Assembly (NCBI RefSeq): GCF_000003815.2
Contig: NC_049996.1
Location: forward strand, 11,448,856 to 11,512,855
Direction: 5' to 3'
Length of the DNA stretch: 64,000 nt
From: Branchiostoma floridae
Lineage: Eukaryota > Chordata > Leptocardii > Amphioxiformes > Branchiostomatidae
Made by a program: the position numbers and the translations under genes. The notes below the pieces were generated by a model. That model saw only the letters and a list, made by a program, of their open reading frames with translations, ran no database searches and was not told where the DNA came from. Each line of letters opens with the position of its first letter. Positions within the stretch are counted from its first letter, which is position 1. Below, piece after piece: positions 1 to 54,600 of the stretch.

Positions 1-1658
1 ACAACTACAGATGTATCTGTAGGCCGGGCTATCGGTTGATGTCGGACGGCCGAAGTTGTACTCCAGATGCCCGTATGTTTCCTTTCCACTGCTGTCTGTG
101 CTACATCCAATGATATGTTTTCATCATATCATTCGACTACCTGGATGAAGCAGTATCTTTCTCACTCCCCACTATATCCAACTGTTCTCCATTCTTTTTA
201 CCGGTATACCTTTGCTTGGTTCAGAATTGCTGTTGCCCGAAAACATGGTCCTTCGTATATCTACTTCTACATTTTTTTCAGATACTAATTGCTACGACAA
301 AAGTTGTAGAATTCATTAGATGATTTTAAATATATACGTGTACATCCCTTAACGTTTAAGGCTTTGTCTGTCTGACAAAAACTGTCACTGTTAAGGACAA
401 TAGAGCCCCTCCATGCAGAGACCTTATTAAGTACTGAGAAGCTCTTAGAAGCGTGAGTTAGTTAGATATACTTAGGCTTAGCCATGTAACACAGAGTGAC
501 GTTGTTACAAAATACTTTGAATTAATTCTATCTTGAACCACACGGCAGTATTCTGTACAGTACTCAGTTCCTTGTCCTTCCATGCACAGCTGTCTACAGC
601 AGCCCGTGTTCCCCCAACCCCTGCGATCCACATTATGGCCGGTGTATCGAAGAGGGAGGGAACTACAGATGCGTCTGTAACCGAGGGTTCGAGCTGATGC
701 CAGACGGACGGAGATGCACCGGTCTTGCTTGTATGTCCTTCCGTTTTCTTACCACTAGCTTCCCTTGTGCACTTTTGACACTGTCTCTTGGTTGCAGTGA
801 CTGAATGTTGTTCTCACAGTGTCATCAGTTCAATGCATATTAACTTGCAGTGCACTGCACATTACGTACTGAATTGATGGAAGCACAGCACCCGAGTATG
901 TCAGTATTGCACTGACCACCACCACTCTTTTAGCACACTGTCTCTTGGTTGCAGTGACTGAATGTTGTTCTCACAAAGTGTCATCAGTTCAACGCATAAT
1001 AACTTGCACTACGCCACACTGTACTGCACTTTACGCACTGGGTTAATGGAAGCACAGCACCCGAGTATGTCGGTATTGTACTGACCACCACTACCCTTTT
1101 GGCAATGATATTGCGTTACTGTATTATGTGCCCTGCTTATTTCTAATTTCCCATGTTTACAGCTGTCAGTGACGACCATGACCATGACCATGGCCGTGAC
1201 CCCTGTTCCCCAAACCCCTGCGACCCAGCTAATGGACAATGTGTGGCAGAAGGACACAACTACAGATGTATCTGTAGACCGGGGTATCGGTTGATGTCGG
1301 ACGGCCGAAGTTGTAATCCAGACGTCGACGCTCGTATGTGTTCTCATTTTTCCTGCTTATGCATATTTCTGATATACTCTTCTTTCACGTCCCTGTAGCT
1401 CGAAAGGTAGCTTCCTCACAGTTGCGAGACCCTGGGAGACCCTGGTTCAATCCTGGGTAGGGCATCTCGGTTAGGGCTGCACACGTCTTTCGAAAGGGGA
1501 ATAAAATTGGGGTGTCGTGTGCGAGGAGGTGCCTGAATCACGTTAAAGGGGCCGAGCTAGCAACTCCTCTCTGTAAAAACATACCCAGCTACAGAAACAG
1601 CAAGGAAACCTGCTCAGCTATGTTTCAGTATGCACTACAAGTGTCTGAAAGAACTCTT

Positions 1659-1739
<81 letters not shown>

Positions 1740-4390
1740 ATCTAGTGTTGCATATGCAGTCCCCCTGTGTGAATAAAAACTAAGTCTGTGACATTCGTCA
1801 GTCACCGAGCATTGTCATAACTTTGCAGCTATTGCGGACGACCCCTGCACTCCAAACCCCTGCGACCCATCCAACGGTCAGTGCGTCCGAGATGGGCGCA
1901 ACTTCAGATGCGTGTGTAGACCGGGGTTCCAGCTGGTGTCTGACGGCAGGACGTGTGCTCCCATCCCCCGTATGTGACATCAGTTCCTTTCACGGCGCTT
2001 AGAATCTATCCTTGTGAACATTCCAATTTTCTTGTTGGAAGAATCTATTTTAACCACCACCTTGTATGAGCTGCGGCACTTAGGCTTCGGGTCCCAACTG
2101 GAATACGGGGCCCTGCCGGGCAGTTAACGGGCTGTTGTTTTTTTTTTTTTTGCACTTTCGGGCGTGATTTTTTTGGTCGGACTTAAAATGAACCCGGGAT
2201 CCGGTAACAAATAGTCGCCGTGACCTACCCGTGGGGAACACCGATGGGTGCCCCCGGTATCCGGCAGTCTACCGGGACAAATTTGTGGCTTCGAAGCCCG
2301 GTCGGGTCTACATCCCTGACGGGCACCGGTGCCATTGGGACCTAAGCCTTACCTTGCGTTCATAAAGCTCAGGTCCTAGTTACCAAGTGTGTTGTACGTC
2401 TGCAGCTCCTGCTACCAACCCCTGTTCTCCAAACCCATGCGACCCAATTAACGGCCAGTGTATCGAAGAAGGGAACAACTACAGGTGTGCCTGTAGAGCA
2501 GGGTACCAGTTGATGTCAGACGGTCGGACTTGTACCACCTTTATTCGTACGTACCTCCGTTGTCTTCTCACAGCACCTGTTTGAAAATACTTTGTGTGCA
2601 CTTGGCACAAGTCTTTTGCGGCAATCCTCTGTGTGTGTTTTGAGTGTTTGTCCGTCTTTTCTGCACCGTCACCCACTTGCTCTAGTCAATGGTACTTCCA
2701 AGAAAAATGAAAGATTAACATGCGGTACGTTCCCTCGTGTGTTTTCAGCTATTCCTGTTTCCTTGAGCCCTTGTGCCCAAAACCCTTGCGACCCAACCAA
2801 CGGCCAATGTCTGGAGGAGGGAAGCAACTTCAGATGCATCTGTAGACCGGGGTATGACCTGATGTCAGACGGTCGAAGATGCACTCCTACCCTCCGCCCG
2901 GCCCGTATGTCATCTCGTTCGTTCGTAAATACTATCCTGCTAAGTCATTATCTGCGTGAAATGCAGAACTGGTATAGTTTTGGTGCTATATATCTCCAGT
3001 TCGCAGCGTGCTATTGCGATGGTATTTTTTGGGTTATGGGTTATGTATTTCGGGAAAGTAGTGTTCACATCTCACATGATATTTTCACAAAACATTGTAC
3101 GTTCAAAAGCTGCTTAAGACATTCTAAACTTCAAACGTACAAAGCAGAGTTTTCTCCTGTCTAAATAAGGGTGGATTGTATCACTCTCATGGTTTCCAAC
3201 TCAGCACTGCTTGGTGACTCACCTGTGAAGACCAGTGTGTGCACATCTCATAGGGTATTGTCACTACACTACACGTTCAAATATACAGTGTCTGTACATG
3301 TACCTTCAGACATGTACATACAGGAACAACAGTTCCACCTGTCTAGATGTAGATGTAGATGTAAATGTAGATGTAGATGTAGATGTAGATGTAGATGTAG
3401 ATGTAGATGTAGATGTAGATGTAGATGTAGATGTAGATGTAGATGTAGATGTAGATGTGTGTTTTCCATTACTTGCTATCGTTCCCTACTGTATCTACCT
3501 TTTATAGCTCTTCCGGACGACGATCTCTGTTCCCCCTATCCCTGTGACCCAGAGCACGGTATATGTAATCAACAAGGAGACAGCTACACGTGCGAATGTA
3601 GACCGGGATTCCAGCTGGAGTCAGACAACCGAACATGTAGCCCTGTCAGCGCTGTCACTCATACGTGGTTCCCGCCACTCGTTTCTGCATCCTCCGAGCA
3701 CTCATTCATTCGTTCGTTCTTTCATTCATTCCTTCATTGAATCATTCATTCATACAATCACTCACTACACTACAGGGAATGGATACACAGCTCCCTCACC
3801 GATGAACACGTTGAAAAGACATTATAACTTTATACGCCACTCCTAACTACCTTGCACAGGATTCACTTTAGTCTCCTCAGGGTGTATATTCATACACCAC
3901 TCCCTTTACCTTTCACAGCACTCCAGTACATTTATTACTCATGCAAGCACGTCTCACAATGCACCATTACCAACTTACACGTTCAAAAGTACCTAAAGAC
4001 ATTCTAAACTTCACATAGATACAACAGTAAAGTTGTGCAAATAAGGAATAAAGTGTATATGATATAGAGTTAATGACGCACCCTGCAGTGTACCAGTGTA
4101 CTATGCCATAAGGCTTGGTCTGTTCCTATAGCCACCGAATAAAGAACTGAGTGAGCAAAATGGAGCATTCTCATTGGTCAACGTCGTTTGACCATATAAG
4201 GATATACAGTGCTTTTCCTGTTACAAAGATTGTTCATCCTTTACAGCTGTTCTCATCAATGAGCCCTGCAATCCTGATCCCTGCGATCCAGTTAACGGTC
4301 TCTGTGTGGAAGATGGGAGTAACTACAGGTGTATCTGTAGGCCGGGGTATCAGTTGTTATCGGACGGCCGGACATGTATTCCAGTCCCCC
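1..4390 (+). CDS. EGF-like repeat exons of the collagen gene (eight visible)
   Basis: Eight exons (1-72 partial, 590-730, 1163-1333, 1829-1969, 2406-2546, 2749-2904, 3508-3660, 4247-4390) each encode one six-cysteine EGF-like module. The pattern is PCSPNPCDP, then GQC, then [10 protein letters not shown], then SDGRxC. Every complete exon is a multiple of three and is bounded by phase-1 introns. They start with CT after the acceptor and end with one base before gtatgt or gtacgt, so any module can be skipped or duplicated without shifting frame. The modules are close copies, which indicates tandem exon duplication. I see no calcium-binding DxDE-type signature at the module starts. The first full module (590-730) is the most diverged, with [16 protein letters not shown]. 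Confidence 0.85.
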
Positions 4391-7300
4391 GTACGTGATT
4401 CATTTCTTTTCTTTCCAAAGCATTTTCTTCTTTGGCGCGCACTTTGAATAACACAACGTGGTCAATCTACAATTACCTACTGCGCTGCGCGTTTGCTGTT
4501 TCTGCCAACTTCTCGCCAAACCATCGTGACCCAGGTAAAGGTCAATATGTGGTAGAGGGCGACAACTACAAATCTATCCACTATGTTCCAACACCGCCTA
4601 ACCCTATAAGGGGTCGAAACATATATAGTGGTGTCAGAACATACCTGTTTGGGCGTCGAATCACAAGGCTGTCAAAACAGGCCACCCTCTCTTTTGAGTG
4701 TCCCATTGGTTTCTTTCAAATAACTCCGCATTGCCCTGTTGATCAATTATAAAGTTGCCTGTCCATGGGCGTCGCCAAAAACAAGATATCTATATACATC
4801 TGATTTGGAATTGATCAACTGAATCTTTATCTTCAGTATGTCTGAAGTGTCGTTTTGTGACTGTGACGTACAAAAATATGATGCCCATATTTACCCATAA
4901 TTTGCCCATATAATGTTTATAGCAAGCTTTTTGTTGTTAACATTGTATGTCTTCTAACTGGTACTGAATTCATTAAGGCCTCACAATGATACACAGATAA
5001 AACTGCTCAAGAGGACCATGGTCTTTGTGAACAGGTGGTCACTACATACAGTATTCTTAAAACTGCCTGTAGTAATGGGAAAATAGTCTAAGCGACTACC
5101 AAAAAGTTGCCACTTAATCCAAGTGGTCCGTATGTAGAGGTTTTAACTTGTGTATGGTTTGTATCACACGTATTCACTAAATCATTTCATTTGATCCATT
5201 AGTCCTTATTTACCAGGCTATCAGATTTTGTGAATGCCTACCGGGAACTCCCTATTCATCGACCGTTAGTTATCTACAATGTTTATAGGCCAATGTACTG
5301 CACACAATGCAGCTTCTATGATACTTCAACAGCAATAATAACATCACGTTTTGTGGTTAGTCTGTGTAACACAAACTCCGCTGTCCAGGGCTGTAACTGG
5401 CCCCTTCTAGGGGGCGGCGGATGTTGGGAGGGCTGCCCTAAGCGAGATTTAATCAGGCTAGTTTGGTGGTTAATGCGCTCATAACACATGGTTGTGTTGA
5501 CAGGATTACAGCCTGTCCCGGAACCGCCTGGTGATGACCGGAGAGGTGACCAGGGAGAACTCGTCACTGGTGCCAACAATGTAAGTAGACTTGTTATCTC
5601 TACTTGATGGAACGTTTTACCTGTGTGTGGTGAAATGTGTTATACTCCTCATCTTAGTACAGACAATTTCACACTTTCTACACAGATTGCCCAATATCTA
5701 TTCATTTCTCATTTTGTTTCATTTCATTTCGCCCTCGCCCTGTCTCTTCCTATTTCTATATTTCTCCCTCTAACTGCCCTCAAATGAGACTTAATGCAGA
5801 CACTCAGTTCTTTTCCCATTATGTTTATTTGTGGGCATTAAAGATAATGATGATGTTGATGATGACGTGGTTGTGGTGATTATGATGCTGATGAGATGAT
5901 GTTGAAGATAATGATGAATGATGCTGATAATGATGATAATGATAATGATAATGATGATGATAATGGTGATGATAATGGCGATGATAACGATAATGATGAT
6001 AATGGTGATGATGATAATGATGATGATAATGGTGATGATAATGGCGATGACGATGATGATGATAATGGTGATAATGATGATAATAATGATGATAATGGTG
6101 ATGATGATGATGATCGTGGTGGTGATGATAATGATGACGATGATGATAAAAACATAACTTTTGACAAACCTGTTCACTAGGCAAACTGCGGTGACAACAA
6201 CTGTTGTGCATCCACCTGTGTGGGACAGCCAGGGCCACGAGTAAGTAAAGTTTTTTGTCGTTTATTGGTATTGGTGACCTCTTTAAAATTCTCTGTCCTA
6301 TTACAGTACTTCAATCTCCACTCGCAATTCAATATGCGATATATACGTTCTTATTGTGTTGAACAAAGTTGTTAGAGGTTGTAAAATAGTACTAAAATGG
6401 TAATAGTATTGAGACTAGTGTTCACAAGTATGCATGCCCTTGGTTAGACCACGAGGTAGCTCAGACTCAAGTAGAAGTGTCAACACTGTCACAAATGCAC
6501 AAGGTCAGGCATTGTTTACAGTGGCAGGCACTTCTCTCTGGGATCAAAGGACCATTGTCCGTATATCATTCAATAATTGTTTGCTGACTGTATTTACAAC
6601 TTTGCCAATCCCTAGACGGGAATTCCTTACATTCATGGTTATCAGTAAAGTAACTTGACTTAAAATACTTTTCCTCCTAAGAACCTTAAGGGGAATTAAG
6701 AAGTAGTCTACTGTCTGGCTTGTCATCGCTTAAAATGAGCACAAGAACTAAAGTATATATAACTTTCTAGAGACAGTAGAGATTAAAATTGACAGCGAGG
6801 AGGGGTAAATATGTAACAATGAGGGAGTCAACTAAAGAAAATCTTCAACGATATAAAAATTATCAATAGACCCCTGGTACAATATCAACTTTTTTTAGTT
6901 ACATTAAGGTAGCAGTAGTAGTAGTAGTAGTAACCTTTATTTGCCGTTCTTTCCAGAGGACCAGTTGAGGGGAGGGGTCACGGAAAAAAAATAAATAGAA
7001 AATTAATACAGAATAGCTAGTTACACTAAATACAATCATATCGAACTCATAAAGGTATGCCATTGCAACGTTGTGTCATGTTATGTGTTTACATTGCTGT
7101 GTGTCATCTATCACAAAATTATAGATAAATTATTACCTACGTATATGATTAAAAAATAACGCACATTTGTTTAATCCGCCTGACAAGTGACAAATTGTAG
7201 TATTTACAGTTCTCATGCCCCTTGCCCCTGTGTAAGTCTATTTGACAACTGATAACTCGTGTCAATCTGTACATGCTTTATTACACGCACCAGGGGCATC

Positions 7301-9382
7301 CAGGGTCAAGGGGTGCTCCGGGGTTCCCTGGACCTGAGGGTGTGCAAGGGGAAACTGGAGCTCCAGGTTTACGAGGCTCTCCGGGGGACCAAGGGGCAAA
7401 GGGGACACCTGTAAGTATATTTTGTGCTCACTCTGTGAGCGAACTTGATGTTTCTGATTTGATATTATTAATCTGGGAGAAGAAATGCTGCTACAGTCAT
7501 ATTTCTATAGCCCGAAACATCAAGTGGCCTTCAGGCTTGGTTACACTGTGGCCTTGTGGTACCTCATCTTACAACTAGAGGAGATACTCCCTTGCACAAT
7601 AACTTTCTGATATTGACAGTAGAGGAAAACAATGAATTGACTCGCTGACTATTAAAGGTAAATTCAGGAATTTTTCAAAGGAATGGATGCCTCACGCCTG
7701 CCTCCATCGGGCTAGATATCGTAATTATGTAGTAAATGTCTAACTGCAATGAAGTTTTAACTGTCATTTCAGGGTGATGCTGGACCCAGGGGACCGCAGG
7801 TCAGCAAAACTTTTTTTTTTACTCTTTAACCAGCTGTTTTGATACTCGAATTGTTCGCTGTGCATATGTATGATTTCATTTGCTGACTCCCTGCTTTGTG
7901 CCCAAGACCCTGACTTTCTTCAATATATGTTAAGAGCGATGTGTGCATGTTACAACTGCTGAAAAAAATTGTCTATAATTAATTGGCAGTTCAATTCGTT
8001 ATACATCTGACGTGACCTAATAATCTGACATTATAACCTAGGAATCTATGCTACGTTCTCTACTTACATTACCTGATAATCTGTGCTACGTTCTCTACTT
8101 GTTGTGTTTCCAGGGTGTTATAGGCCCTGCCGGCCCGGTGGGGCCCCGGGGTATCCAGGGAGACAAGGGGAGTAAAGGCACGGCAGGGACACGTGGACTG
8201 CAGGGGGAGAAGGGTCTGAGGGTGGGTACAACCTGCTCGCGCTTGTATCAACATTATTATTTGTTGATTTGCTTTCATTGATACATGTTGTTGCGTTGTT
8301 ATGAAACAAGTAAGATTTACCTAAACAACACTAAGGGTAGTTGAAACTTGAAACTTACACAAATTTTCGGCCGACCGAAAATTATGAAGTCCCAACTGTC
8401 CATAGTGTTGGTAAGGTATCGTTTAGTAGCCTGGAATCCAGCCATGTTAGTTTAGGTCCGCTTCCAGAGGTCGCTACTCTGCCAACGGGGTAGCGATCTC
8501 TGGAGCGAACTAATGCTAACAAGGCTGGATTCCAGGTTAAAAGTTTCGTTGTTTCATAATGTCATTTACCCAACACAGTCGAACTTTTATGCTTACACTT
8601 ATAGTGTTGTATTCATTGTCAGCAGAATAATTCATTTTTTTCTCAGTGTTTGCTTTCTTCTCTTATGTAGGGTTCACAAGGCCTACCAGGACAGACTGGC
8701 GAACCCGTATGTCATGATCTTTGAATCTGAATTTGAAACGTCGATGTGACAGTTTCTATTGCCATTTTTATCTAACCTCAACATTGTTCACCAACGAACG
8801 ATTTTGACACCCATCAACACTGTAGCCATGTCCCATGGTTTTTTACGGGAACACTGATTCAAATTTTAGATTTAGTCCTTTAGTTTGTCGCATTTTGCTC
8901 TCTAACTTCGTACATTCCAGGGTTTGCCAGGAAACGCAGGCCCTATGGGAATGCCAGGATTATGTGTAAGTACATGTCATTTCAGAAGTTATTACTGCAC
9001 ACAAAGGAAGTGAGACATTGCTTTGACTAGTCCGTTTATCAAATTTTATGGCTAAATCATTAACTAATTTCAGAATAAAAAATAAATTAATGCGCAGTAA
9101 GACTTTACAATATTTCTTTTGGTAATTTCTTCATTGTTTTCTTTACTCACCACAGGGTCCAAAAGGAGATCCCGGTACGTCTTTTCCCTCTGATTTGTTT
9201 TACGAACCAGCACGTTGTCACGCTGTTAGCAGTGTTACATTTCGTTAAAATCTTGGTAATCTTCGACATCTGAATATTCAATAAAGTTTTAAAATTTTCT
9301 CTATATATATTTTTAATGTACAGGGTTGCCAGGACCTCCTGGAACCGGAATCGCAAGTGAGTATTGAATATATAAATTATAA

Positions 9383-9449
<67 letters not shown>

Positions 9450-12400
9450 TGACCCTGTCAAATTCATGCTTTGACATTCGACTTGTACGTACTCTACTCC
9501 GTATGTATGCTTTTTGCTTTCGTTACATTTTAGAAATAAAACAAAGACATTGTCATTCATTGAATTCACCCTGCTCTCTCATTATTACATCACTTTTGCA
9601 TGCCATTTCATAAACATGATTCAAGATCAAGCAATACTTGATAGTTTACCTGCCCCAACTTAAAATTATTTTTCATCTTACTAGTAGCGTTTAAAAGCCA
9701 TTACAAATTGTGCCATCTTGCTAACAATAACACCTCTTGATAAGGTTTTTCTTAGTGTATCGGGGTAAAATACAATATAATACAATACAGTCATAGTTTC
9801 CCAATCTTGACCAAGGATTCCTTATTTAACCTCCTTGTCTTGACCAACGGTGAATGCTTACCAACACATCAATCACTAGTAATTAATCTAGACGACCTGA
9901 GTCTTCGAGAAAGGACGTATCGGCTTTCTCCAATATTAGTCTTTGTTACTTTCGTGGGTCTGGTCTGGGCGTGACATGGCTAAAGACTCCACACAAAGGT
10001 TAATGTGTGGCCTTACCATGGCGCTAACCTGTACAGTGCACCTTTTCACCGTTCTCTTCTTCGGGTCATGGCTAATATTGACGTAACAAGCATGTTTTTG
10101 TGTGTTTGTCTGATTAGCTGAAGGCCCACAAGGCCCACCTGGTCCGCCCGGGGGTTCGGGGCGTCCTGGCCCGCCTGGTGCTCCCGGCATCCCCGGCTCA
10201 ACTGGCCCCGGCACCAAGGGAGAACCGGGCTTTCCGGGGTCTCCTGGCCTCAGAGGTAAAACACATCAACAACGCGCAAAATAGCAATAACTCAAGCATC
10301 TGGATATGGTTATTGAAACGGTCAGTCGTTTCAGATAATATCCCTTATCTTTCGTCAGTGGCACGATAAGATAACGGATGTTATCTGAAAGGTCTGACCG
10401 TTTCCAATATCCAGTAGCATGCACTTGAGCAATTGCTGTTTGGCTTATCTTATTACCTGGATGTCTAACCTTCATCGACGCAACTCAACAATGCCTGTCT
10501 ATTGTTAACGGACGGTGCCAGAATGTATTCCTTTATTGCATTATAGATAGACAATGAATGATGTTGTCAAGACATGACCATCAAACCGTCACGTCAATTC
10601 TATACGTCATCTCTACGAGTTTTTATTATGTTCTCATTTCAGGATCCCCTGGAAATCCAGGTGGACCGGGCCGACCAGGTATGTGAGTTTATGCTTTCTG
10701 ATTAAATGAGTGTGTGTCACCTATCAATCATGAATTAAGTATCAAGTTAAATTTTACAGCGAACTGGAGATTTTGCTGCATGTTTTTATCTTACAGCGCC
10801 TCTATCATGATTTAATTTGTTGTCGTTTTTTGAAGCATATTTTCCACTCACCTACAAAGCTTATTCGTCCCAACCACAGGCTTTTCGCTTTGGCTTGTTA
10901 GCAGCATCATAACATACTTAAGAAAAGTGTCATCCGCTAACATATACATTTAACCTTTCATTGTATCTAGCAAATGAGCAATTGCCATGCTTGAAACCTG
11001 TACCTGTACGAACGTAATTTGTATATCACGCAGTTTTCTAGAATTGATGTAATTGACTTTCTGTACTTGTAGGAAGCGATGGCATCCCAGGTTCCCCTGG
11101 ACCTAAAGGTGACGTATTGTAATTATTTCAACCAAATGATGAAAAACACAAAATCCAAAATGAACAATAATGTCTGAAATGGTGGATAAACCTTAGGAAC
11201 ACCATGGGCTAGTTTGATCGATCAGACGATGTGTATACCATTGAACAAAAACTGAACTGATGTAATGCAGATATCATTCATTCTTTCTACTCAAAATTAG
11301 ACTAATAATAGTTTCGTTTTATACAACTTTGATGTACTTTGATATCTTTGAGGAACTCCACTATTACTATCTTTTATAACGGTTTACCTAATTTGAACTT
11401 TCAAATTAGAGCAGTTACTAACTGTTGAATCGTTATTTCAGGTGAACTCGGAGTCCCTGGATTCCCGGGCCCACCAGGTAGAATGGTTCAATTATTCTTT
11501 CAGTACTATTTACAGTGATCAATATTTTCTTCAATAATTTAACAAATCAATGCAAATGTCTGAAATCTTTCAGGTCCTCCAGGAGGCAGGGGTGACATGG
11601 GATTTCCGGGACCAAAAGGTGAGTCTTAGATAAACTTCCGAATGAAAGGGAAAGTAGGTTCAAACATTCCTCCACATTTTGAATGAAAATAAATACCTCT
11701 ATATTTCACAATTTTTTTCCTATGACAGGGTTCTCCCCAGAATTTTTTAGTATAGTGGAGGGGCTGGCAAAAATAACCCGCACCAACGCGCTGCACTTTC
11801 ATGAAAATGGGTTCATTTTGCAATGACAGAGGGTGTCAAATACTACAAGTATAATATACTGTTGTTATTCCTTTGTTGTGAAGTGGCAAAACTACTATTG
11901 TTTTGATCATTGCTCATTCACAAGTTTTTGCAGACAATGCTGACTGGAAAAGTGATGCCACTTGGTACAAAAATCTGTGAATTGTCATTAATCTTAGCAA
12001 AACTAACAAAGAAAATAGGGAAGAAACACACTAAATTTGAAAAATAGTATAGTGGAGCTGGCTGAGAGTATAGTGGAGGGCCTCCCTTATTCCACTCTCT
12101 GGGGAGAACCCTGTATGATTTCAACCTAAGAGTTTTCTATAAAATATCAGGTATCATGTATTGAATAACATTACATACAGCTCCGGTAATCATCTGCAGT
12201 CTCTTATGGGCAAAACTACGAAAGCTTCGCGATCAACAAATTTCTCTGACGCTGAAGATGGCTTCAGCACTGGATTTTCAGTACCGAGTGTTCGTCAGCA
12301 CTGCATGGGTTTCCAGTGCTGATGCGCTCTCACTGGAATGCTGTAAACTCTGATGTCTGAATCTTTGTGATGTTTTTGCTGAAGGGGATTCCGGCACTGC

Positions 12401-15400
12401 AGTCGGCGTACAAGGTCCACCTGGCCGACCCGGGCCTCAGGGACCGTCTGGACCACCAGGTGCGAAACGTGTCTTACCTTTCATCTTTCTACTGATCCTT
12501 GGGGATGTCCTTGTGTTGTCAGGTTCTAATGCTGTATGAGACCCTTAGGGTTTCTTTGTACGATGTGAGATAGGTCATCAATTTTAACAGGTTGCTATTG
12601 TCTTATTTGCTATGCATCCCTAGTTACACTAACATTGTTACATGGTTGCTGAGCCAATATGTATGTGTATGATATATCATCTATGTCCCGTGATCTTTGT
12701 ATAACAGGTTTCCCTGGACCGAAAGGGGAATTCGGCCCGTCGGGACCAGCCGGTAAGTCTGTGTTCTCGATCTTTTGCAGTTTTTGTTGTATCCTGTTGC
12801 TTGTTTTCTTATAAATATTCTTTTTTTTTCCGCCAGCATATATCTGCCATCGACGTAAGATTATACTTAAAATATCTGCGATTTTTCAGGTCCTCCTGGC
12901 CCATCGGGGCTCGGATTCCCTGGCCCTCCTGGGCCCCCTGGTCCTGCGGGTAAGTAGTACTATGAGATATACTCCATTTTTGGCGACGCCTCAGGGATGG
13001 AGGCATTTTTACAGTATTACGATCGCTGCACGCCCCAGGGAATTGCTTCTAAAATTGCCTTTCCTGTGGACGAATTTTGAAGGAGCTGGGATGTCTATTC
13101 TTTCATTGTGATTCGTTTTGTTGTAATAGCTATCTGGCGATATCTTGTAACCAAGCTCTTCTTAGCTCGAAACTTTCATAGATTATATTCATTTCAATTC
13201 TGGAAAGCATGTAGTCTCAATAGTATGGATCTAGTCTCTACCAGACTCCGGATCGCTGGAAAAATCGTAGAAATGGAATGAATAGAGGAGTAAGCCGGCC
13301 AGAGAAATATAGCTGGGTAGGGAACAGCACGCGATCCACGGATCCTAGGATCGCGAGCTGTTCCCTGGCCGGTTATATTCCTCTCTATTTGTTCCATTTC
13401 TACGATTTTTCCAGCGATCCGGAGTCTGGTAGAGACTAGTATGGATCATAGACTGACGATTTTGGTATTGATGCCCTTGCTTTCATACCAGGTTCTCGAG
13501 GACCTCCTGGAGGTGCAGGGTTTCCAGGTAAGAAACGGCGTTGAGCATTATTTGTCATTCGTTATCTTGGATTATCTTTCTAGTTACCAAAGCTTAAGTG
13601 TAACTAGCAATCAATCGTTTCAATGCAATACACGTCTTAAAACGTATAATGCTAATACAATGCAATAGTATGCTATGAGGTTACCAGTACATTTTGTATG
13701 AGTGTCGATGTCTCTAATAAATCCAGTTACCTCCATACATATGAACATTCAATAATCGCCACTCTATCAAATCAATTCATCAGACGTTTGATGTTCCATA
13801 ATGTTCTTGTCGTGTTGTGCTGTTTTTTTTATAGTTTACATACGTATAACAATTCTATTATTATTCTATCAAAATATGAAGTATTCCTCCTAACATGTGA
13901 TGATTGGTGATACAGGCACAAAAGGAGAACCTGGTTTAGGATTCCCCGGACCATCCGGTTTCCCAGGTACATACTTATGTTTAGGATTTATCCATATGCG
14001 TTACTTTCTTTACAAAGAAATGGTTACAATGTTTTTAATGTTATATAGAATTGTGTCATATTGAATTTCATGAAATATTGCCTAAGTTCATAGTAGGAGA
14101 GAGTAGTTTATCTGACAAAACTGCGTGAATGCTATTCAGCACCAATTGCAAAACAATTCCCTAGTGTGATTGTTGTGCAGCACCGAGGACAAAGCTTATT
14201 TCATAGTGTGAATTCTCTTCAGCACCGAGGACAAACCTGTTCGGTTGTTACCATTACGCTTTAAATGTGCAGCAAGTACATTATCAAAATACATCAATAC
14301 ATTTGTGATTTTTATCTTCTAGGTCCCCAGGGAGATCGAGGGCCGCCAGGACCATCAGGATCGGACGGTAATGTATCATACATCAATTAATATCGTGATA
14401 GTTATTGACTTCTCGTAAGTTATCCGGGCCAAGTATGCTGATCTGCATGGATTTGCATTATGCCTATTGTGGTATATGGAGAATTCCAGATAATAGTTTC
14501 AACACATTACATTTGGCAGAAGTCGAATCACAACAAATATTCTAGATATACCAAAGGGTTACCATGGCAAGAAAAGTTAGATTTACATAAAGCAATACTT
14601 GCCTGGGCACGCAAATGGCTACTTTAGGCATTTATAGCGACAGATACATCCAGGAATTCTATACTGTTTCCATGTATTGCTCAAAGTTACCCTTACCAGA
14701 TTTACCCGGTGTATAAAAAAATCATATTTGATAAATCCCGATTTACGTGCAGTGTATGTCTCGCCATTTTCTCCCTGAACACATTACTGTGTGCACCACA
14801 GGCGAGGGAGGGTACAGGACATTCAACCTGATGACGCGGCACAGTCAGACCACCATGGTGCCGCAGTGCCTGCCGGGGATGACCAAGATGTGGGAGGGGT
14901 ACAGTCTGCTGCATGGGGAAGGGAACGAGAGAGCTCATGGACAGGACCTCGGTAGAAAAGCAATCATCACAAACATTTGAAAAAGATCACAATAGTTTTA
15001 TCGCGTTTGAACTAGTATCTTTTGTCATCATGTTTCCTAATTGCAACACAGTTGCTCGCAACGTCCTGAGTCGCCAGTATCTATAAGAAGTCGTTGACAT
15101 TCTTCCTCTTTGCTATCAGGGTTTCTGTAAGCGTTATTGTGACTTCTCGCTGCTAGATGGCGCAGCGGCAAGGAGAATGCGGTCCCAATCGTGTCTATCT
15201 AAGTTTGTATCATTGACATCGAAATTCAAGTTTTCTTAAAACACACAGCCAAATTCTTCCTCTTTGCTATCAAGTTTTCTGTAAGCGTTATAGTGACTTC
15301 TTGCCGCTAGGTGGCGCAACGGCAAGGAGAATGCGGTCCCAAACGTGGCTGAGTCTGTATTGTTGACATCGATATTCTTAACAGGTACTGCCGGCTCCTG

Positions 15401-16902
15401 TGTGAAGACATTCGCCCCCATGCCGTTCATGTTCTGTGACATCAACTTCCAATGTCACTACGCCACCCGTGACGACAAGACCTACTGGCTATCCACCATC
15501 TCCACTCGGGCTGAAATCCCTCCTAGCCCGGTCCAAGGCACCGACGTCCTGCGGTTCATCTCCCGGTGCGTGGTGTGCGAGGTCCCGTCTACCGTCATGG
15601 CGTTCCACAGCCAGGGTCCCGACATTCCCGACTGCCCCCTCCCCACACGGGACCATAGGTGGGAGTCTATCTGGGAAGGATTCAGCTTCTTCATGGTACG
15701 CCCTTCTTTTATTACTTCCGTTGCCAAGGCTTAGCAGCAAAGGTGTTAGATCTCTTGATAGAATCAGAGTTGAATCACATGCACTGAAAAGCATTGGGAC
15801 GTCATGATGGCAAATTGCAATGAGCAATGCTTTAATCAATTTCCCTTGTACCTGCTATCCTCAAATTATACCCAAATGTTTATAAAACCATGACTGCCTT
15901 CACAAATCATATCTATTGACACAAGATCGACACATAACTTAAATCTTTGAAGTACATTGATAGTTACTTTTTTTAAAGAGTGAAAGCTGAAGGCTATGCT
16001 ACGATGAGTAAAACAACTCAATTGTTCGTACTTAATTATTCGTTAATCGGGAAGAAATAAGACGTTAATGGAAAATGAAATTAGTGGCGAGGAGATTACC
16101 GTACATTCTGTGAAATTGTTGATTTTGTACATTATTTCTTGCCATATCAACTTCCATATTCAGAATCGGAATGTAAATATTGCAACTGGTTAACGTTGTC
16201 TTCTTCCCCAGCACACGGCTGCCGGAGAGGGCAGCGGTCAGATCTTCTCCAGCCCCGGCAGCTGTCTGGAGAGGTTCCGCCCCGCCCCCTTCATCGAGTG
16301 TCACGGAGCGCGGGGCACCTGCGGCTTCTTCGCCAACAAGTTCAGCTTCTGGCTGGCGTCTGTTCCAAGGTATCTGATTTTACTTCATTCAGTGTATTCG
16401 AGGCTAATGTCATCAACATCATATACTAGTATTAGACGAACTGCATGCAAAAAAGGAATGGATCAAATACATGGTCTATGGAGAGATTACTCGAGAAGGC
16501 GGTAACCCGAGAAACCTCGATGGCTTCCAGAGTCACTCCTGGAACGTCAAGAGAAGAAGAAGGGAGAAGAAGAAGATAACTGTCACATGGTTTCAGTGTT
16601 TTAGCCTTATAAACTTGATTCCATACATCACGTACATGTATCTCCTGCCTGTTTCTCTGTGGTAACGAAATTGTTTTTCGTGTTCTAGAAATTACAACCC
16701 TGACCAGAACAGGGACCCGTACGAGCCTCAGGACGGGCCGTGCGAGGAGATGATCCGCACACAGCAGGCCCGTACGGAGATGGAGAGGATGGTCGGCCGG
16801 TGCCGCGTCTGTATGCTGATAAACGACGAGATCGAGGCGTCTATAAGAGAGACCGGGCCTCTGTTGCCGGGAGTGTATGACCCTAGGCAGCCGCTAGGCT
16901 GA
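1..16902 (+). CDS. EGF-collagen-NC1 protein (short-chain collagen IV-like), 5' end outside window
   Basis: Secreted extracellular-matrix protein read across about 32 exons. Exon spans: 1-72, 590-730, 1163-1333, 1829-1969, 2406-2546, 2749-2904, 3508-about 3660, 4247-4390, 5504-5580, 6181-6240, 7294-7410, 7773-7799, 8114-8221, 8671-8706, 8921-8965, 9156-9174, 9324-9356, 10118-10255, 10643-10678, 11073-11108, 11442-11477, 11574-11618, 12385-12459, 12708-12752, 12890-12949, 13492-13527, 13916-13966, 14323-14367, 14802-14951, 15385-15695, 16212-16369, 16689-16902. All junctions are AG/GT and in phase except the donor near 3660. Order: repeated EGF-like modules, Cys-rich linker, about 330 residues of Gly-X-Y, then a two-lobed collagen IV NC1 domain ending in TGA. 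The helix is far shorter than the roughly 1400 residues of collagen IV, which fits the invertebrate spongin short-chain collagen-related family. EGF modules in front of such a chain are not something I know from that family. No signal peptide is visible because the start lies upstream. Confidence 0.88.
1392..1741 (+). mobile_element. tRNA-derived SINE with TATC/TTTC tail
   Basis: A box A-like block (GTAGCTCGAAAGGTAG) is followed about 45 bp later by a box B-like GGTTCAATCC. An unrelated body follows, ending in a (TATC)n then (TTTC)n microsatellite. This is the layout of a tRNA-derived SINE. A related copy with the same GGTTCAATCCTGGGTAGGG block lies in inverted orientation near 41.6 kb. It sits in the intron between two EGF exons. 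It does not fold as a functional tRNA. Confidence 0.55.
2046..2370. other. GC-rich intronic block, probable dispersed repeat
   Basis: A 300-bp GC-rich stretch with a T-run and repeated CCGG-containing words interrupts the otherwise AT-rich EGF introns. I see no coding sequence or clear terminal repeats in it, so assignment to a repeat family is only a suggestion from its composition. Confidence 0.2.
3343..3458. repeat. Hexanucleotide microsatellite (TAGATG)n
   Basis: About 19 near-perfect copies of the 6-bp unit, with one early AAATG variant. It ends 50 bp before the acceptor of the EGF exon at 3508. Open frames in it on both strands are artefacts of the repeat. Confidence 0.95.
4497..4585 (+). 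pseudogene. Decayed EGF-like exon with the cysteines lost
   Basis: In the same frame and spacing as the functional EGF exons this stretch reads [18 protein letters not shown] and then [12 protein letters not shown]. Aligned to the family, five successive cysteines read Phe, Arg, Tyr, Ser and His. The first four are single-base changes from TGY (TTC, CGT, TAT, TCT). The expected acceptor (ttacag or tttcag before CTGTT) now reads gtttg, and no donor like those of the other modules follows. It is therefore a relic copy of the module, probably not spliced in. Confidence 0.7.
5504..6240 (+). CDS. Linker exons between EGF repeats and triple helix
   Basis: Exon 5504-5580 enters in phase 1 from the last EGF exon and leaves in phase 0. 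It encodes a polar Gly/Pro-rich linker ([20 protein letters not shown]). Exon 6181-6240 (phase 0 on both sides) encodes [20 protein letters not shown], with four cysteines just before the first Gly-X-Y exon. Such a knot may register or cross-link the chains at the N-terminal end of the helix; that role is inferred. A long GAT/AAT trinucleotide repeat ends about 30 bp before the acceptor at 6181. Confidence 0.75.
5846..6150. repeat. GAT/AAT trinucleotide repeat tract
   Basis: About 300 bp of interspersed GAT, AAT and GGT triplets, imperfect throughout, ending 30 bp before the Cys-rich linker exon. It gives long artefactual open frames on both strands. Confidence 0.9.
7294..14367 (+). CDS. Collagen triple-helix exons (18 exons, about 330 residues Gly-X-Y)
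   Basis: Eighteen short exons carry continuous Gly-X-Y. Sizes are 117, 27, 108, 36, 45, 19, 33, 138, 36, 36, 36, 45, 75, 45, 60, 36, 51 and 45 bp. The first five begin with a whole Gly codon (phase 0). From the exon at 9156 onwards the Gly codon is split G|GN (phase 1). Small imperfections occur, such as [30 protein letters not shown] and a Cys in MPGLC. These resemble the interruptions typical of collagen IV-type chains and give flexibility. The repeat runs directly into the NC1 domain. Confidence 0.88.
8430..8536. mobile_element. Foldback MITE (107 bp hairpin)
   Basis: The two halves are near-perfect reverse complements. CCTGGAATCCAGCC at the left pairs with GGCTGGATTCCAGG at the right. 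The match continues inward through the TTAG/CTAA and CAGAGGTCGCTAC/GTAGCGATCTCTG blocks to a short loop. It is non-coding and lies in a collagen intron. Confidence 0.75.
9384..9447. repeat. (TA)n microsatellite
   Basis: About 60 bp of alternating TA with a single G interruption, in the intron after the exon at 9324-9356. Confidence 0.9.
10278..10480. mobile_element. Dispersed foldback element, copy 1
   Basis: Contains ACTCAAGCATCTGGATATGG, then a GAAACGGTCAG block, its reverse complement (CTGACCGTTTC...ATATCCAG), and a tail ending TTACCTGGATGTCTAACC. Two further, partly degenerate copies of the family occur at about 22144-22262 and 22412-22495. Because the first half and its complement pair, the copy forms a long hairpin. 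It is non-coding. Confidence 0.6.
11726..12113. mobile_element. TIR element (388 bp) with 5-bp target duplication
   Basis: Left end CAGGGTTCTCCCCAGA and right end TCTGGGGAGAACCCTG are perfect inverted repeats. They are flanked by TATGA on both sides (11721-11725 and 12114-12118). It has no transposase frame, so it is a non-autonomous DNA transposon. It sits in the collagen intron between 11618 and 12385. Confidence 0.8.
13231..13439. mobile_element. MITE (209 bp) with perfect 7-bp target duplication
   Basis: Terminal inverted repeats begin CTAGTCTCTACCAGACTCCG and continue through the ATCGTAGAAATGG block on both sides. TATGGAT flanks both ends (13224-13230 and 13440-13446). It inserted only 45 bp upstream of the exon at 13492. 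A diverged relative lies at about 57186-57471. Confidence 0.85.
14802..16902 (+). CDS. Collagen IV-type NC1 (C4) domain exons
   Basis: Four exons (14802-14951, 15385-15695, 16212-16369, 16689-16902) encode two tandem C4 lobes. Diagnostic pieces are [36 protein letters not shown] and FISRCVVCE in lobe 1, and [25 protein letters not shown] and GRCRVCM in lobe 2. In collagen IV this domain trimerises the chains and joins protomers into hexamers. Lobe 1 has the six expected cysteines. Lobe 2 has a seventh (DGPCEEM). The Met-rich loop after TYWLST and the Lys-containing loop after FSFWLAS, which form the sulfilimine bond in collagen IV, are replaced by sequences without Met and without Lys. Stop codon TGA at 16900-16902. 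Confidence 0.9.
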
Positions 16903-18450
16903 AATAACGTGTAACTCTCTCGTACACCTTTGTAATCATAATTAGGATGACGAGGGATTGGTAAGCCAGTTTTAGCATGAAAGTAAATCTGTTTTTGGTA
17001 AATGACGGTATAGATAAAAACTGAACTTTGAAGACCAACGCTTTGAAGGATAGGGACTTACTCAAAGTTTCAACAGAGACGGGGGGCGACACATGTTATC
17101 TGGCACTTGCGACCCGTTGCTGCAGTCACCAGTTTCTAACGCCAGGTCCCAGATTTAGCAGTAGATGGATTCGTTTCGTTAAAAGTGCATGTTGCCTTGT
17201 TGCCGTATCAATTCTTCTAAGTGTTGCTTTTTGAAAGTTCAGTGTTTATTCATAATACAGGTTTGTTCACTGGATTGCAGTGATTTTTCTCTCATATAGT
17301 GTTCCTTCACACATTACCTATCATAGTGATACCATTAACGTTCAAGTTAGTGTATAAAAATAGTATGATAAGTTCCTTAGGACAAGTGGTGCTATTAACC
17401 ATCATGTTATTAACTTTCAAGCTATACTAGTACTCTGAAAAAAGTGTGACTGAAGACACAAGAACACAATATATACAACTAACACACAAGAAAACACAAG
17501 AACAGAATAAACACAACTAACACACAAGAAAATAGTCTTTCACAAGTACAATATTACCTCCTAGTACAACCTAGTATGGTCTTAATCGCATTTACACCTA
17601 GCATCCTAAATATGTAAGTCAGCGTTCTTAGGTCTAAAAGAAAGAGTGCTATTGAACTTCTGCCTGGTGACTAACCTACCAAGATTAGCATAAATACTAT
17701 CGCTTATTCTTACACAAAACCGTAATTTCACAATAATGCGGGATCAGACATGTCCAAAAATATGTCCCACTACTGTATTCCAATACATTATGTGCCACGA
17801 GCCACTGCACTGGGTATTACAATGGTCTCTGAACGAATAAGTGAATGAACACGAAAACATGTTTGATTATCTTTCTGAGCATTTCTAATGAATTCCCCCG
17901 TTTTATAAAAACGCGACATGGTGCTCATAGTAGCTTCTTGGTACATAAACATACGACCAAGCTGGTTTTATAGTTTTCATCGTAAACATACTCGTAGTCA
18001 GCTAGTGAACGTTTTTTTCAAGCTTGTGTTGTACCTTGTCTATTCGTATGATTTTCTTTGCAAAAGTAATAAAGTGATGTTTGCTGTATTTGATGACACA
18101 CGGATTAAACATATATACTTTGCAAGTGTGTTTATTTTAGTTTGTTGCATGTAAGTGTGTAACTCGTAATGCTTCTTTCTTCATTTTATTGCGGATTCTT
18201 GTAAATTTCCATGATTATAATTTAATTTCATGACCAGTCTGTACAACAGTCAGTTATACGTAACCGCAATGTTCCATAAGCAAAATTAAATCGAAGCCAT
18301 CCATGACAGAAAGCAAATAAAGACAAAAAAATCAACGAAAAGTTGATAGTAATTTGAACTGAACAATAATATGCTTGAAGAAGGCAGATAACAGTAATTT
18401 TGGAGGAAAGACGGGAGTCTCAATCCGCTAAAAGGTTAATAACAGGTCTT
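16903..18450. other. 3' flank of the collagen gene, no gene seen
   Basis: AT-rich sequence holding the presumed 3' UTR. An AATAAA near 17505 and another near 18068 are possible polyadenylation signals. I see no convincing coding exon here. Confidence 0.5.
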
Positions 18451-18798
18451 GGTGCTGATCCAAATTCACATACAGGGAATAGGCCTGTCCTTGGTGCTGA
18501 TCCAAATTCACATACAGGGAACAGGCCTGTCCTTGGTGCTGATCCAAATTCACATACAGGGAACAGGCCTGTCCTTGGTGCTGATCCACATTCACATACA
18601 GGGAACAGACCTGTCCTTGGTGCTGATCCACATTCACATACAGGGAACATGCCTGTCATTGGTGCTGATCCCCATTCACATACAGGGAACATGCCTGTCC
18701 TTGGTGCTGATCCACATTCACATACATGGAACAGGCCTGTCCTTGGTGCTGATCCACATTCACACACAGGGAAAAGGCCTGTCCTTGGTGCTTAACCC
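18451..18798. repeat. 42-bp minisatellite, eight full units
   Basis: Unit starts at 18451, 18493, 18535, 18577, 18619, 18661, 18703 and 18745, with a partial ninth from 18787. The unit contains GGTGCTGATCC, TTCACATACAGGGAA and AGGCCTGTCCTT. Because 42 is a multiple of three, several frames on both strands stay open (for example GADPNSHTGNRPVL per unit). I do not regard these frames as genes. One isolated unit-like block recurs at about 37008-37036 in inverted orientation. Confidence 0.93.
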
Positions 18799-19205
18799 CT
18801 ATTCAACCATTCAAACACACACACACACATGAATGCACACAGAGACTATTGGGTCAGAGGACGAGGAGACTCAGCTATAGTAGGTTTGGATAGCAGGTTA
18901 CACACACGTAAAGTTTTTAGGCGGCCATGCTTTTCTAGGGGCCGAGTGCTGTCTTAGAATTCCAAGGAAATGGGTCAGTCAGGATTAGTTTGTTGATAGT
19001 TTTTACGTAGTCTTAAGAAAGCACACACCACTAGAGGTGGACAAAGAAACTCTGTTAAGACCAACAAAATCCCAACCGCTGAGCCGATGATTTCACAATC
19101 AGTCCATCGAAAAATCTGTTGAGTGAGTCTGATTGGTCCTCGCATATAAACTGATTAATTAGCAACAGGTGGCGCGCATTGCGCAATGCGGCATGGCAAG
19201 CCAAG

Positions 19206-51600: not shown

Positions 51601-54600
51601 CGCAATGACCTCTGACGTCATCTACGAGCGTAGAGACGGGGTCGAACAACTGGATTGTCTCGTGTACTCCCCCAACGGAAGACTCTTGGCCGTCGGGTCT
51701 CACGACAACTTTATCTATATCTACGCCGTATACGACGATGGTAGAGACTACAAGGTATAGTATTTTTTAACTCCCAAATATTTGCTCCAACACAAAGTTT
51801 CCTTTTATACATAAGGAAAGAGAAGTGCGTTACATTTGTGGGGCGTGGTGACTTTGAAGAAGACGTCTGAGCGGATTTTGCTCACCCCAGCCCTAACCTA
51901 ACCCTAAACCTATCCTCAACCCCAACCCCAATCCCACGCCTCACCGTTTTCCAACGATAGAATCCTTCCAACAGGTACCCCTTGAATTTAAAAAGTCACC
52001 CTTACAGCTATCAAATTTTTTTCAAATTCTGCAGAAAATAGGTCGCCTGGAAGGACACTCCAGTTTCGTCACCCACCTTGATTGGTCGTCAGACAGTAGA
52101 TTTCTCCAGAGCACTTCCGGGGACTACGAGCTGCTGTACTGGGACGTCATCACATTACGTCACGTCGGTCACGTGTCCGCCATGACTGACGTCAACTGGC
52201 ACACATACACATGCGTGTTCGGTTACAACGTGTTCGGTAAGTTGACGACTTATCATACGCTGTCACACATTGTAGATGTTATGATTTGACATACCATAAC
52301 ATCAACTTGTATTTTGTATATTGTATTTTTCGGTTGATTAGTCATCATTAGAGAAAAGCTAAGCTAGGCTCACAAGGTCAACCTTGGAGTTTGAAGGTTA
52401 CGGACTATGGCGTGTGCTCGACCGGACTCAGTGACCACTCGTTTATCTACGTCACAAGGAAGGTCAGACAACCAAGAGGTACTCCCAGAACAGCCACAGT
52501 CCGTTCGTACAGAAACTTCGATGAATCGTCTTTCCAAGAGGAACTGTTTAATGCGCCCTGGAGCAAGGTGGAGGAACACGCTGATGTTAACGGCGCACTG
52601 GACTGTTTTCATTCTATACTGCACAACATTTGTGATAAACATGCTCCGTGGGTGACCGTACGTATTCGAGGACACGAGCCACCCTGGATGACGCAGGAAT
52701 ATCTGTCGATGGCCCGTGACCGAGATTACTACTTTCACCGAGCTAAAAAGACAAAACAACCAGGGACTTGGGAGACAGCAAAACGATTGCGCAACAAATG
52801 TAACAATATGGCACAATACCTGAAGAAAACGTACTACCGAAGTGAAATTGAGTCTAAGCAAAACGATAGTAAAGGCCTTTGGTCAACCTTAAGAACACTC
52901 TTGCCAGGTCAAACTAAACACGCTGATAAAGTTCCTAAACAAAGTGAAAACAACATTGCGAATGAATTCAATTCATATTTCACTTCCATTGGAGCCAAAC
53001 TAGCCGCAGCCTTCTCTAGTGTTTATATGGCAACTATAGGGCCTCCTAAGTCTATGTTTAGTTTTGCCGACATACCAACAGAGTTCACACACCAACAATT
53101 GCTGAACATCCCTCTTGGCAAGAGCACAGGGGTGGATGGAGTAAGTAGCAGGCTGATCCGCCATGCTGCTCCAGCAATTGCAGCACCACTGACGTACATA
53201 TACAACCTGTCACTCTCCACAGGAACAGTACCCACTGGCTGGAAGAAAGCCAAGGTCACACCGCTATACAAAGATGGGGACAAAACTGACTGCAGTAACT
53301 ACAGACCTATATCAGTAATTCCATCTTTTATGAAAATATTGGAGAAAGCAATACATACACAAGTCTACAACTTCCTTACCGAGCATAAGATTCTGAATCC
53401 TTCACAGTCAGGTTTCAGACCAAAACACTCAACAACAACAACATTAATCAATGTGACAGACACGATCCTAGATAACATGGACAAGGGGCTTTTGACAGGT
53501 GCTGTCTTTTTGGACCTGAAAAAGGCCTTTGACACGGTGTCTCATGAAATTCTTCTTGACAAACTACGGATAAATGGCATACAAGACAACGCATTGCTGT
53601 GGTTTGAGTCATACCTGTCAAATAGGTGTCAGATAACAGTTGTAGACGGCACCATAAGTGATTGTCTTGGTATAGCTGAAGGCGTACCACAAGGGTCTGT
53701 TCTCGGACCGCTATTGTTTATATTGTACATAAATGATATGCCAAACTACATAAGCCATGGTCAAATAGTACTCTATGCTGATGACACAGCACTGTTTTAC
53801 GCATCAAAGTCTGTCGCTGATATAAACAGAGCGTTGAATGCTGATCTCTGCAATATTGAGAAGTGGTTGGATGCAAACAGGCTAACTCTCAATGTCCGTA
53901 AATGCAAGTCTATGCTTTTTGGCACTATAAGAAGGCTGCGTCTAGAAACAGAAGAACTAAATCTTACCCTTTCTGGTACTTATTTGGAAGTTGTTGCATG
54001 TTTTAAATATCTAGGTGTTTGGTTTGATTCCTGTCTTACATGGAGTATACACATTAACAAACTATGCAGTACGGTGTCCTCTAGGTTGGGAGTGTTAAGA
54101 CGTTTAGTACCCATTTTACCACCTAAGACACTTTCCATGTTGTTTAACTGTATGATTCTTCCTAAGATTGAGTATTGTGATATTGTATGGGGCAACTGCG
54201 GAAAATCTCTCTCTGACAATCTCCAGAAACTCCAAAACCGTGCAGCACGGCTTGTTCTCGGCCTGTCACATAGATCACATGTAGATAATGACCATCTGTC
54301 TGCATTAGGTTGGAATTCTTTGGCATCTCGTCGGAAAATGCACCTCCTGCAAACCGTCTTCAAGTCAATCCATCGGCAGTTACCAGAGTACTTACAAATA
54401 TTTAACAGAACATCTCACACATACGCAACAAGGCTTAATTCTAACTTATCACTACAACTACCAAAAGTCAGACTTGAATCTGGCCGTAGGAAATTTGAGT
54501 ACAGAGGTGCGTTTTCATGGAACGAGTTGCCGCCCACGGTTAAAGTGGCCAGTTCTGCACTATCATTCAAGAAACTGCTAAGAAACGGTAATCACTGCTG

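Follow-up and report, generated by a model that had tools for sequence, protein, structure and literature searches.

A predicted gene of Branchiostoma floridae with an EGF array ahead of a short collagen and an NC1 domain of the collagen IV type

Introduction

In collagen IV, the C-terminal NC1 domain selects and registers the chains, the triple helix folds from that domain, and the Gly-X-Y region extends for about 1400 residues. Another known type of matrix protein combines calcium-binding epidermal growth factor (EGF)-like modules with a short collagen and has no NC1 domain. Spongin short-chain collagens are said to have been treated by Aouacheria et al. in 2006. According to the sections of PMC5395295 used here, spongins consist of a short collagen and an NC1 domain that lacks HSQ motifs, is missing four collagen IV cysteines, and has gained three others. 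EGF domains are also carried by shell collagens of Lingula, whose combination with collagen is attributed to domain shuffling, and proteins with EGF and collagen domains have been counted across bilaterians (PMC4595640, in the portion consulted). Here, we analyze a window of the Branchiostoma floridae genome, by which we mean the whole stretch of 64,000 nucleotides studied (C18:11448856-11512855; contig NC_049996.1 of assembly GCF_000003815.2). It contains most of a predicted gene in which one exon series appears to encode an EGF array followed by a short collagen and an NC1 domain of the collagen IV type.

Results

The genome searched comprised 513 Mb in 431 contigs. Thirty kilobases of the same contig were added upstream of the window and are numbered on the window's scale, on which 0 is the base just before the window; neither window nor flank contains an N. 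A first-pass annotation, made from the window's letters alone, had described one in-phase exon series running from at least eight tandem EGF-like modules through a Cys-rich linker and about 330 residues of Gly-X-Y into a full NC1 domain. The series of EGF, collagen, and NC1 exons is confirmed, and all of its described parts lie on the + strand. Joining 36 exons gives a predicted model of 1251 codons with consistent phases and no internal stop, in which all donors (35/35) are GT and all acceptors (35/35) are AG. Its exons comprise one for the signal peptide, 11 for EGF modules (the usable ones among 12), two for the linker, 18 for collagen, and four for NC1 (Table 1). Exon ends were picked by phase and by eye, and individual small exons or ends may differ.

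The signal exon lies 4.9 kb upstream of the window, so the start of the gene falls outside it. From there, the predicted order is signal peptide, EGF array, a Pro/Asp-rich linker with an RGD motif, a four-Cys cluster, an interrupted Gly-X-Y segment, NC1, and a C-terminal tail. Within 1-4390 there are eight EGF-like cores, including one truncated at the start of the window, and the flank raises the count to 12; five begin upstream of the window, the fifth straddling its edge. The Cys-rich linker corresponds to the exon at 6181-6240. The Gly-X-Y segment is 335 residues long, has five short interruptions, and is spread over the 18 exons from 7294 and the end of the preceding linker exon; within the window, + strand runs of at least four Gly-X-Y triplets are confined to 7.3-14.4 kb. 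An RGD motif is present in linker A, and the collagen has one more; such motifs can arise by chance. NC1 is complete, with two C4 repeats across four exons (14802-16902). Against Pfam, the predicted protein scores 264.4 bits for cEGF (11 stretches), 144.5 bits for Collagen (5 stretches), and 222.7 bits for C4 (E = 9.2e-67, 2 stretches), all far above chance. Taken together as one gene, this locus would encode a secreted, EGF-armed short-chain relative of collagen IV, a reading to which we assign a probability of roughly 0.8.

Table 1. Predicted exons of the EGF-collagen-NC1 gene in window coordinates; negative positions lie in the upstream flank.
Feature	Position	Strand	Remarks
Signal-peptide exon	-4867..-4804	+	MGPRNCLGGGLLVAILAVTCA; phase-1 donor
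First EGF exon	from -2602	+	upstream flank
EGF exon 5, 3' part	1..72	+	first 114 bases upstream of window; phase 1-1
EGF exon 6	590..730	+	
EGF exon 7	1163..1333	+	Asp-His run ahead of module
EGF exon 8	1829..1969	+	start by eye; 1802 likewise in phase
EGF exon 9	2406..2546	+	
EGF exon 10	2749..2904	+	
EGF-like module 11	3508..3638	+	acceptor 3508, core 3528-3638; omitted from model
EGF exon 12 (last)	4247..4390	+	phase-1 donor
Linker exon A	5504-5580	+	phase 1 to 0; contains RGD
Linker exon B	6181-6240	+	phase 0-0; four Cys; Gly-X-Y begins here
Collagen exons c1-c6	7294-7410, 7773-7799, 8114-8221, 8671-8706, 8921-8965, 9156-9174	+	
Collagen exons c7-c10	9324-9356, 10118-10255, 10643-10678, 11073-11108	+	
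Collagen exons c11-c14	11442-11477, 11574-11618, 12385-12459, 12708-12752	+	
Collagen exons c15-c18	12890-12949, 13492-13527, 13916-13966, 14323-14367	+	
NC1 exon 1	14802..14951	+	
NC1 exon 2	15385..15695	+	
NC1 exon 3	16212..16369	+	
NC1 exon 4	16689..16902	+	28-residue C-terminal tail; stop TGA at 16900-16902

The strongest evidence that the array and the collagen belong together comes from related genes in the same genome. A search with the PF01413 profile returned 59 exon-level matches, which include a collagen IV-like pair on C12, lying head to head on opposite strands with the NC1 ends outward, and further NC1 genes on C3, C13, C16, C17, and C18. The nearest other NC1 match lies about 0.39 Mb from this gene on the same strand. 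The two nearest relatives are C18b (C18:11.832-11.852 Mb, 0.39 Mb away) and C17 (C17:12.587-12.608 Mb). Both have the same series of collagen exons (117, 108 ... bases), a Cys exon preceding Gly-X-Y, an NC1 domain, and a linker exon that runs from phase 1 to phase 0, as here. Their first exons resemble the signal exon of this gene (MGPRN.../MGPK...) and end in a phase-1 donor. Aligned to that exon, C18b scores 55 and C17 scores 40; as background, 110 signal-like openings were drawn from 418.5 kb, and the highest score among them is 14.

Neither relative appears to have an EGF array. Between the signal exon and linker B, an EGF pattern scan found no match in C17 (11.8 kb, no N) and none in C18b (6.1 kb, no N); the same scan found 12 in this gene with a tight pattern and 13 with a loose one, the extra match being a CRCR repeat. 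A genome-wide EGF search, which is a lower bound because 150 of 394 candidates were scored, recovered all 12 modules of this gene and, among the candidates scored, none at C18b or C17. A signal exon homologous to that of EGF-less paralogues thus lies upstream of the array, which places the array between the first and second exons of a short-collagen gene.

Within the array, acceptor and GT donor are both phase 1 in 11 of the 12 EGF exons, and Asp-His runs precede the module in exons 3, 4, 5, and 7. None of the 12 modules fits the calcium-binding motif, which we take to be C-x-[DN]-x4-[FY]-x-C-x-C, and none fits the O-fucose or O-glucose motif in the forms that we assume for them; a Notch-like role is therefore not indicated. 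The Pfam EGF_CA profile reaches 78.1 bits summed over the whole protein, with no stretch passing individually. A long hexamer repeat, which can be read as CRCR or DVDV, lies just 5' of module 11 (region 3348-3638).

The NC1 domain keeps the 12 canonical collagen IV cysteines and has one extra at NC1 position 222, as judged from an alignment against collagen IV rows only. HSQ motifs are found at NC1 positions 11 and 122. At the column of Met-93, this gene has Pro, and the last 70 residues contain no Lys; both C12 chains retain the sulfilimine Met and Lys in the alignment. The standard sulfilimine bond should therefore not form, with the position of Lys-211 within the sequence being the one that we presume. 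A tree of NC1 domains groups this gene with C18b, C17, and C18a (local support 0.988), and within that group with C18b (0.773); the C12 pair and the divergent C13 and C16 genes fall elsewhere. The tree was used for broad grouping only: its rows are exon pieces from tblastn, some with a few intron residues, and those of C18a, C16a, C13, C12plus, C3_u2 to C3_u5, and C3b are incomplete. A tblastn search of plasmids with the NC1 tail gave no match, as expected of an animal gene.

Several points weigh against reading the locus as a single EGF-collagen gene. Module 11 has no usable in-phase GT donor, the earliest being at 3712, and it is the sole point at which the in-phase series claimed at first pass breaks; the frame is kept if its exon is skipped. 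All usable EGF exons are symmetric, and leaving the whole array out of a transcript would preserve the reading frame too. The linkers of the paralogues were placed by phase and position, not by sequence similarity: that of C17 was read by eye and that of C18b is one of two candidates. A transcript that ends early is thinkable, as two codons separate the donor of exon 12 from a stop when that exon is read through. The case for one gene is comparative, and the trimer, arms, and function proposed below are inferred.

The first of the alternatives is compatible with a single gene. It makes the array optional: joining the signal exon to linker A would yield a plain collagen, and an EGF-armed form would be made in certain tissues or stages. 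Because phase 1 is shared by the signal donor, every usable EGF exon (11 in all), and the linker acceptor, any subset could be skipped in frame. Module 11 already seems unusable, and both paralogues have the plain form. However, the excess of synonymous change among the EGF modules suggests that they are in use. We regard optional use of the array as possible, if on the unlikely side.

The first-pass annotation had related the protein to the spongin family, and a true spongin short-chain collagen with added domains would share the published outline of a short Gly-X-Y segment followed by NC1; a spongin is also noted in Branchiostoma floridae in the available sections of PMC5395295. The short chain holds up, but the two HSQ motifs and the 12 canonical cysteines set this NC1 apart from spongins as those sections describe them. 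In addition, it groups with collagen IV NC1s, away from the divergent C13 and C16 domains, in a tree built without spongin reference rows. A true spongin is accordingly an improbable identity for this gene. By the HSQ test, the protein would be a short collagen whose NC1 is of the collagen IV type, and not a spongin proper. The spongin label is thus right only in part, and placement in the spongin family is not supported in the form first given.

Division into two adjacent genes, with a secreted EGF-array gene ending past exon 12 and a short-collagen gene starting at the linker, had been named at the outset as the outcome that would refute a single series. The early stop on read-through favors it, as do the intron of about 1.1 kb between 4390 and 5504 and the lack of a convincing BLAST match to linker A in the paralogues. 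Against it, the signal peptide of the short-collagen type is located upstream of the EGF array, no signal-exon candidate between exon 12 and linker A (4391-5504) passed the filter, and the linker exon begins in phase 1. Polyadenylation signals do not help: AATAAA and ATTAAA are absent from 4391-5503 and also from the 598 bases past the true stop, which makes the test uninformative. With a paralogue-like signal peptide ahead of the array and none between exon 12 and the linker, two genes now seem very unlikely. A decaying gene or an assembly artefact, to which the missing donor of module 11 might point, is scarcely credible given 1251 codons without an internal stop, a window and flank free of N, and divergence that is mostly synonymous in the NC1, collagen, and EGF parts and therefore speaks against decay.

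For a single gene with an inserted array, the sequences suggest an origin. EGF queries match elsewhere mainly at C1:14.959-14.973 Mb, with weaker, scattered single matches on other contigs. The C1 locus (C1:14959353-14974749) contains at least 34 EGF modules, with a phase-1 donor in 32 of 34, and is likely the source family of the inserted exons. A rough tree of modules of about 37 residues, for which no support is claimed, joins modules 1 and 8 to C1 modules 15-17, and module 11 to C1 module 13. A single symmetric 1-1 EGF exon, or a few of them, akin to those of the C1 array on another chromosome, may have entered the phase-1 intron that separates the signal exon from the linker in a short-collagen gene and then multiplied through exon duplication. 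Parsimony would favor insertion in this gene over loss in both paralogues. EGF modules 3, 4, 5, and 7 are almost identical, with synonymous divergence (dS) of 0 to 0.14, and their likeness extends into the flanks; exon duplication therefore appears to have continued until late. For all EGF pairs pooled, which are not independent, dS is 1.06 and nonsynonymous divergence (dN) is 0.20.

Compared with C18b, the NC1 domain has a dS of 0.45 and a dN of 0.12 over 262 codons. In the collagen exons, synonymous sites are saturated and dN is 0.22 over 132 codons; this comparison covers c1, c3, c5, and c8, as the best matches of several short collagen exons were out of order. NC1 exon 3 (window 16189-16366) is 96.6% identical to C18b at the DNA level, and the remaining NC1 exons are 77-90% identical, which makes gene conversion of exon 3 with C18b likely. 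Dating of the insertion was dropped in view of the saturated collagen sites and the conversion signal.

Other NC1 loci in the genome have unusual arrangements of their own. At C3:14084200-14099175, two copies of NC1 exon 1 come after a series of collagen exons, together with five cassettes that each hold NC1 exons 2 and 3; no convincing collagen exon separates the cassettes, and one 45-base Gly-rich run passes the motif. This locus may encode a single collagen with a choice of NC1 ends, or a chain with multiple NC1 domains. At C17:12605770-12607877, three stretches like NC1 exon 1 and three like exon 3, some with stops, surround one exon 2. C16a was considered as a second EGF-NC1 gene and rejected: a lone EGF exon of the calcium type precedes its collagen by about 9 kb, two assembly gaps interrupt that distance, and no further EGF-like frame was seen. 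That exon, in the region C16:1759500-1779499 and ahead of a divergent NC1 collagen, may be part of another gene.

Farther along the window, the + strand has an open frame of 749 residues (52352-54601) that resembles a non-long-terminal-repeat reverse transcriptase, named by eye. It sits between WD40-like exons (51897-52289 and 54815-55174) of what by eye looks like an EML-type gene. At 18379-18832, a unit about 42 bases long is repeated in tandem, and several frames are open across the repeat.

Discussion

The domain content allows a mechanism to be proposed for the predicted protein. NC1 domains would pick and register three chains, presumably as a homotrimer, and the Gly-X-Y segment would zip up as a short triple helix. 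At the linker, the Cys cluster could tie the chains together at the N-terminal end of the helix, and each trimer would display three long EGF arms. Docking of NC1 on NC1 could join trimers end to end without the sulfilimine lock. Such a molecule might act as a multivalent matrix linker or spacer, as opposed to a sheet-forming collagen IV. The first-pass annotation had suggested that the architecture could combine basement-membrane assembly with receptor or matrix binding, which would be a further possible role. We tentatively propose, at somewhat less than even odds, a new matrix molecule: an NC1-driven trimer with three arms of about 11 EGF modules each, Asp-His spacers that possibly bind metal, and no sulfilimine lock. 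It would have arisen by exon insertion beside EGF-less sisters in the same genome, and its usable inserted exons could be skipped, which would permit plain and armed collagens from one gene.

The locus matters in several respects. It has the appearance of clean exon shuffling with the state before insertion preserved alongside, in sister genes of the same genome whose phase-1 intron is free of EGF exons. A short, EGF-armed chain without sulfilimine chemistry bears on how far collagen IV assembly rests on NC1 alone. The NC1 genes of this genome also spread well past its two collagen IV genes.

Among the described systems, the type that joins calcium-binding EGF modules to a short collagen differs from this protein, in which no module fits the calcium-binding motif and an NC1 domain is present. 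The Lingula shell collagens are alike in having EGF and collagen domains in one chain, here a predicted one, but a combination with NC1 is not described in the consulted portion of PMC4595640. C4 is named in a figure key in that portion, and models with EGF, collagen, and NC1 may stand uncommented in the paper's tables. No description of a protein with all three was found in the open-access library searched, as judged from titles, abstracts, and passages, and the combination does not occur in the parts of PMC10381214, PMC12549020, and PMC4224354 consulted. The architecture had been called unfamiliar at first pass; this stands for the addition of a collagen IV-type NC1, the part for which we found no description, and falls for EGF with collagen, which is already published (PMC4595640, in the same portion). 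The architecture is thus only partly new.

Spongins share with this gene a short collagen followed by NC1, and differ, as far as the consulted text of PMC5395295 describes them, in that this gene retains the HSQ motifs and all 12 collagen IV cysteines and carries an EGF array. With collagen IV alpha chains, the gene shares a complete NC1 of two C4 repeats with 12 cysteines and two HSQ motifs, and an interrupted Gly-X-Y segment. It differs from them in the 335-residue length of that segment, the EGF array in front, the absence of Met-93 and Lys-211, and its place outside the C12 head-to-head pair. The closest comparison is with C18b and C17, which have in common with this gene the signal exon, the linker phases, the Cys exon, the collagen exon series, and NC1, and which differ in having no EGF exons, another linker sequence, and no Cys where this gene has its extra NC1 cysteine.

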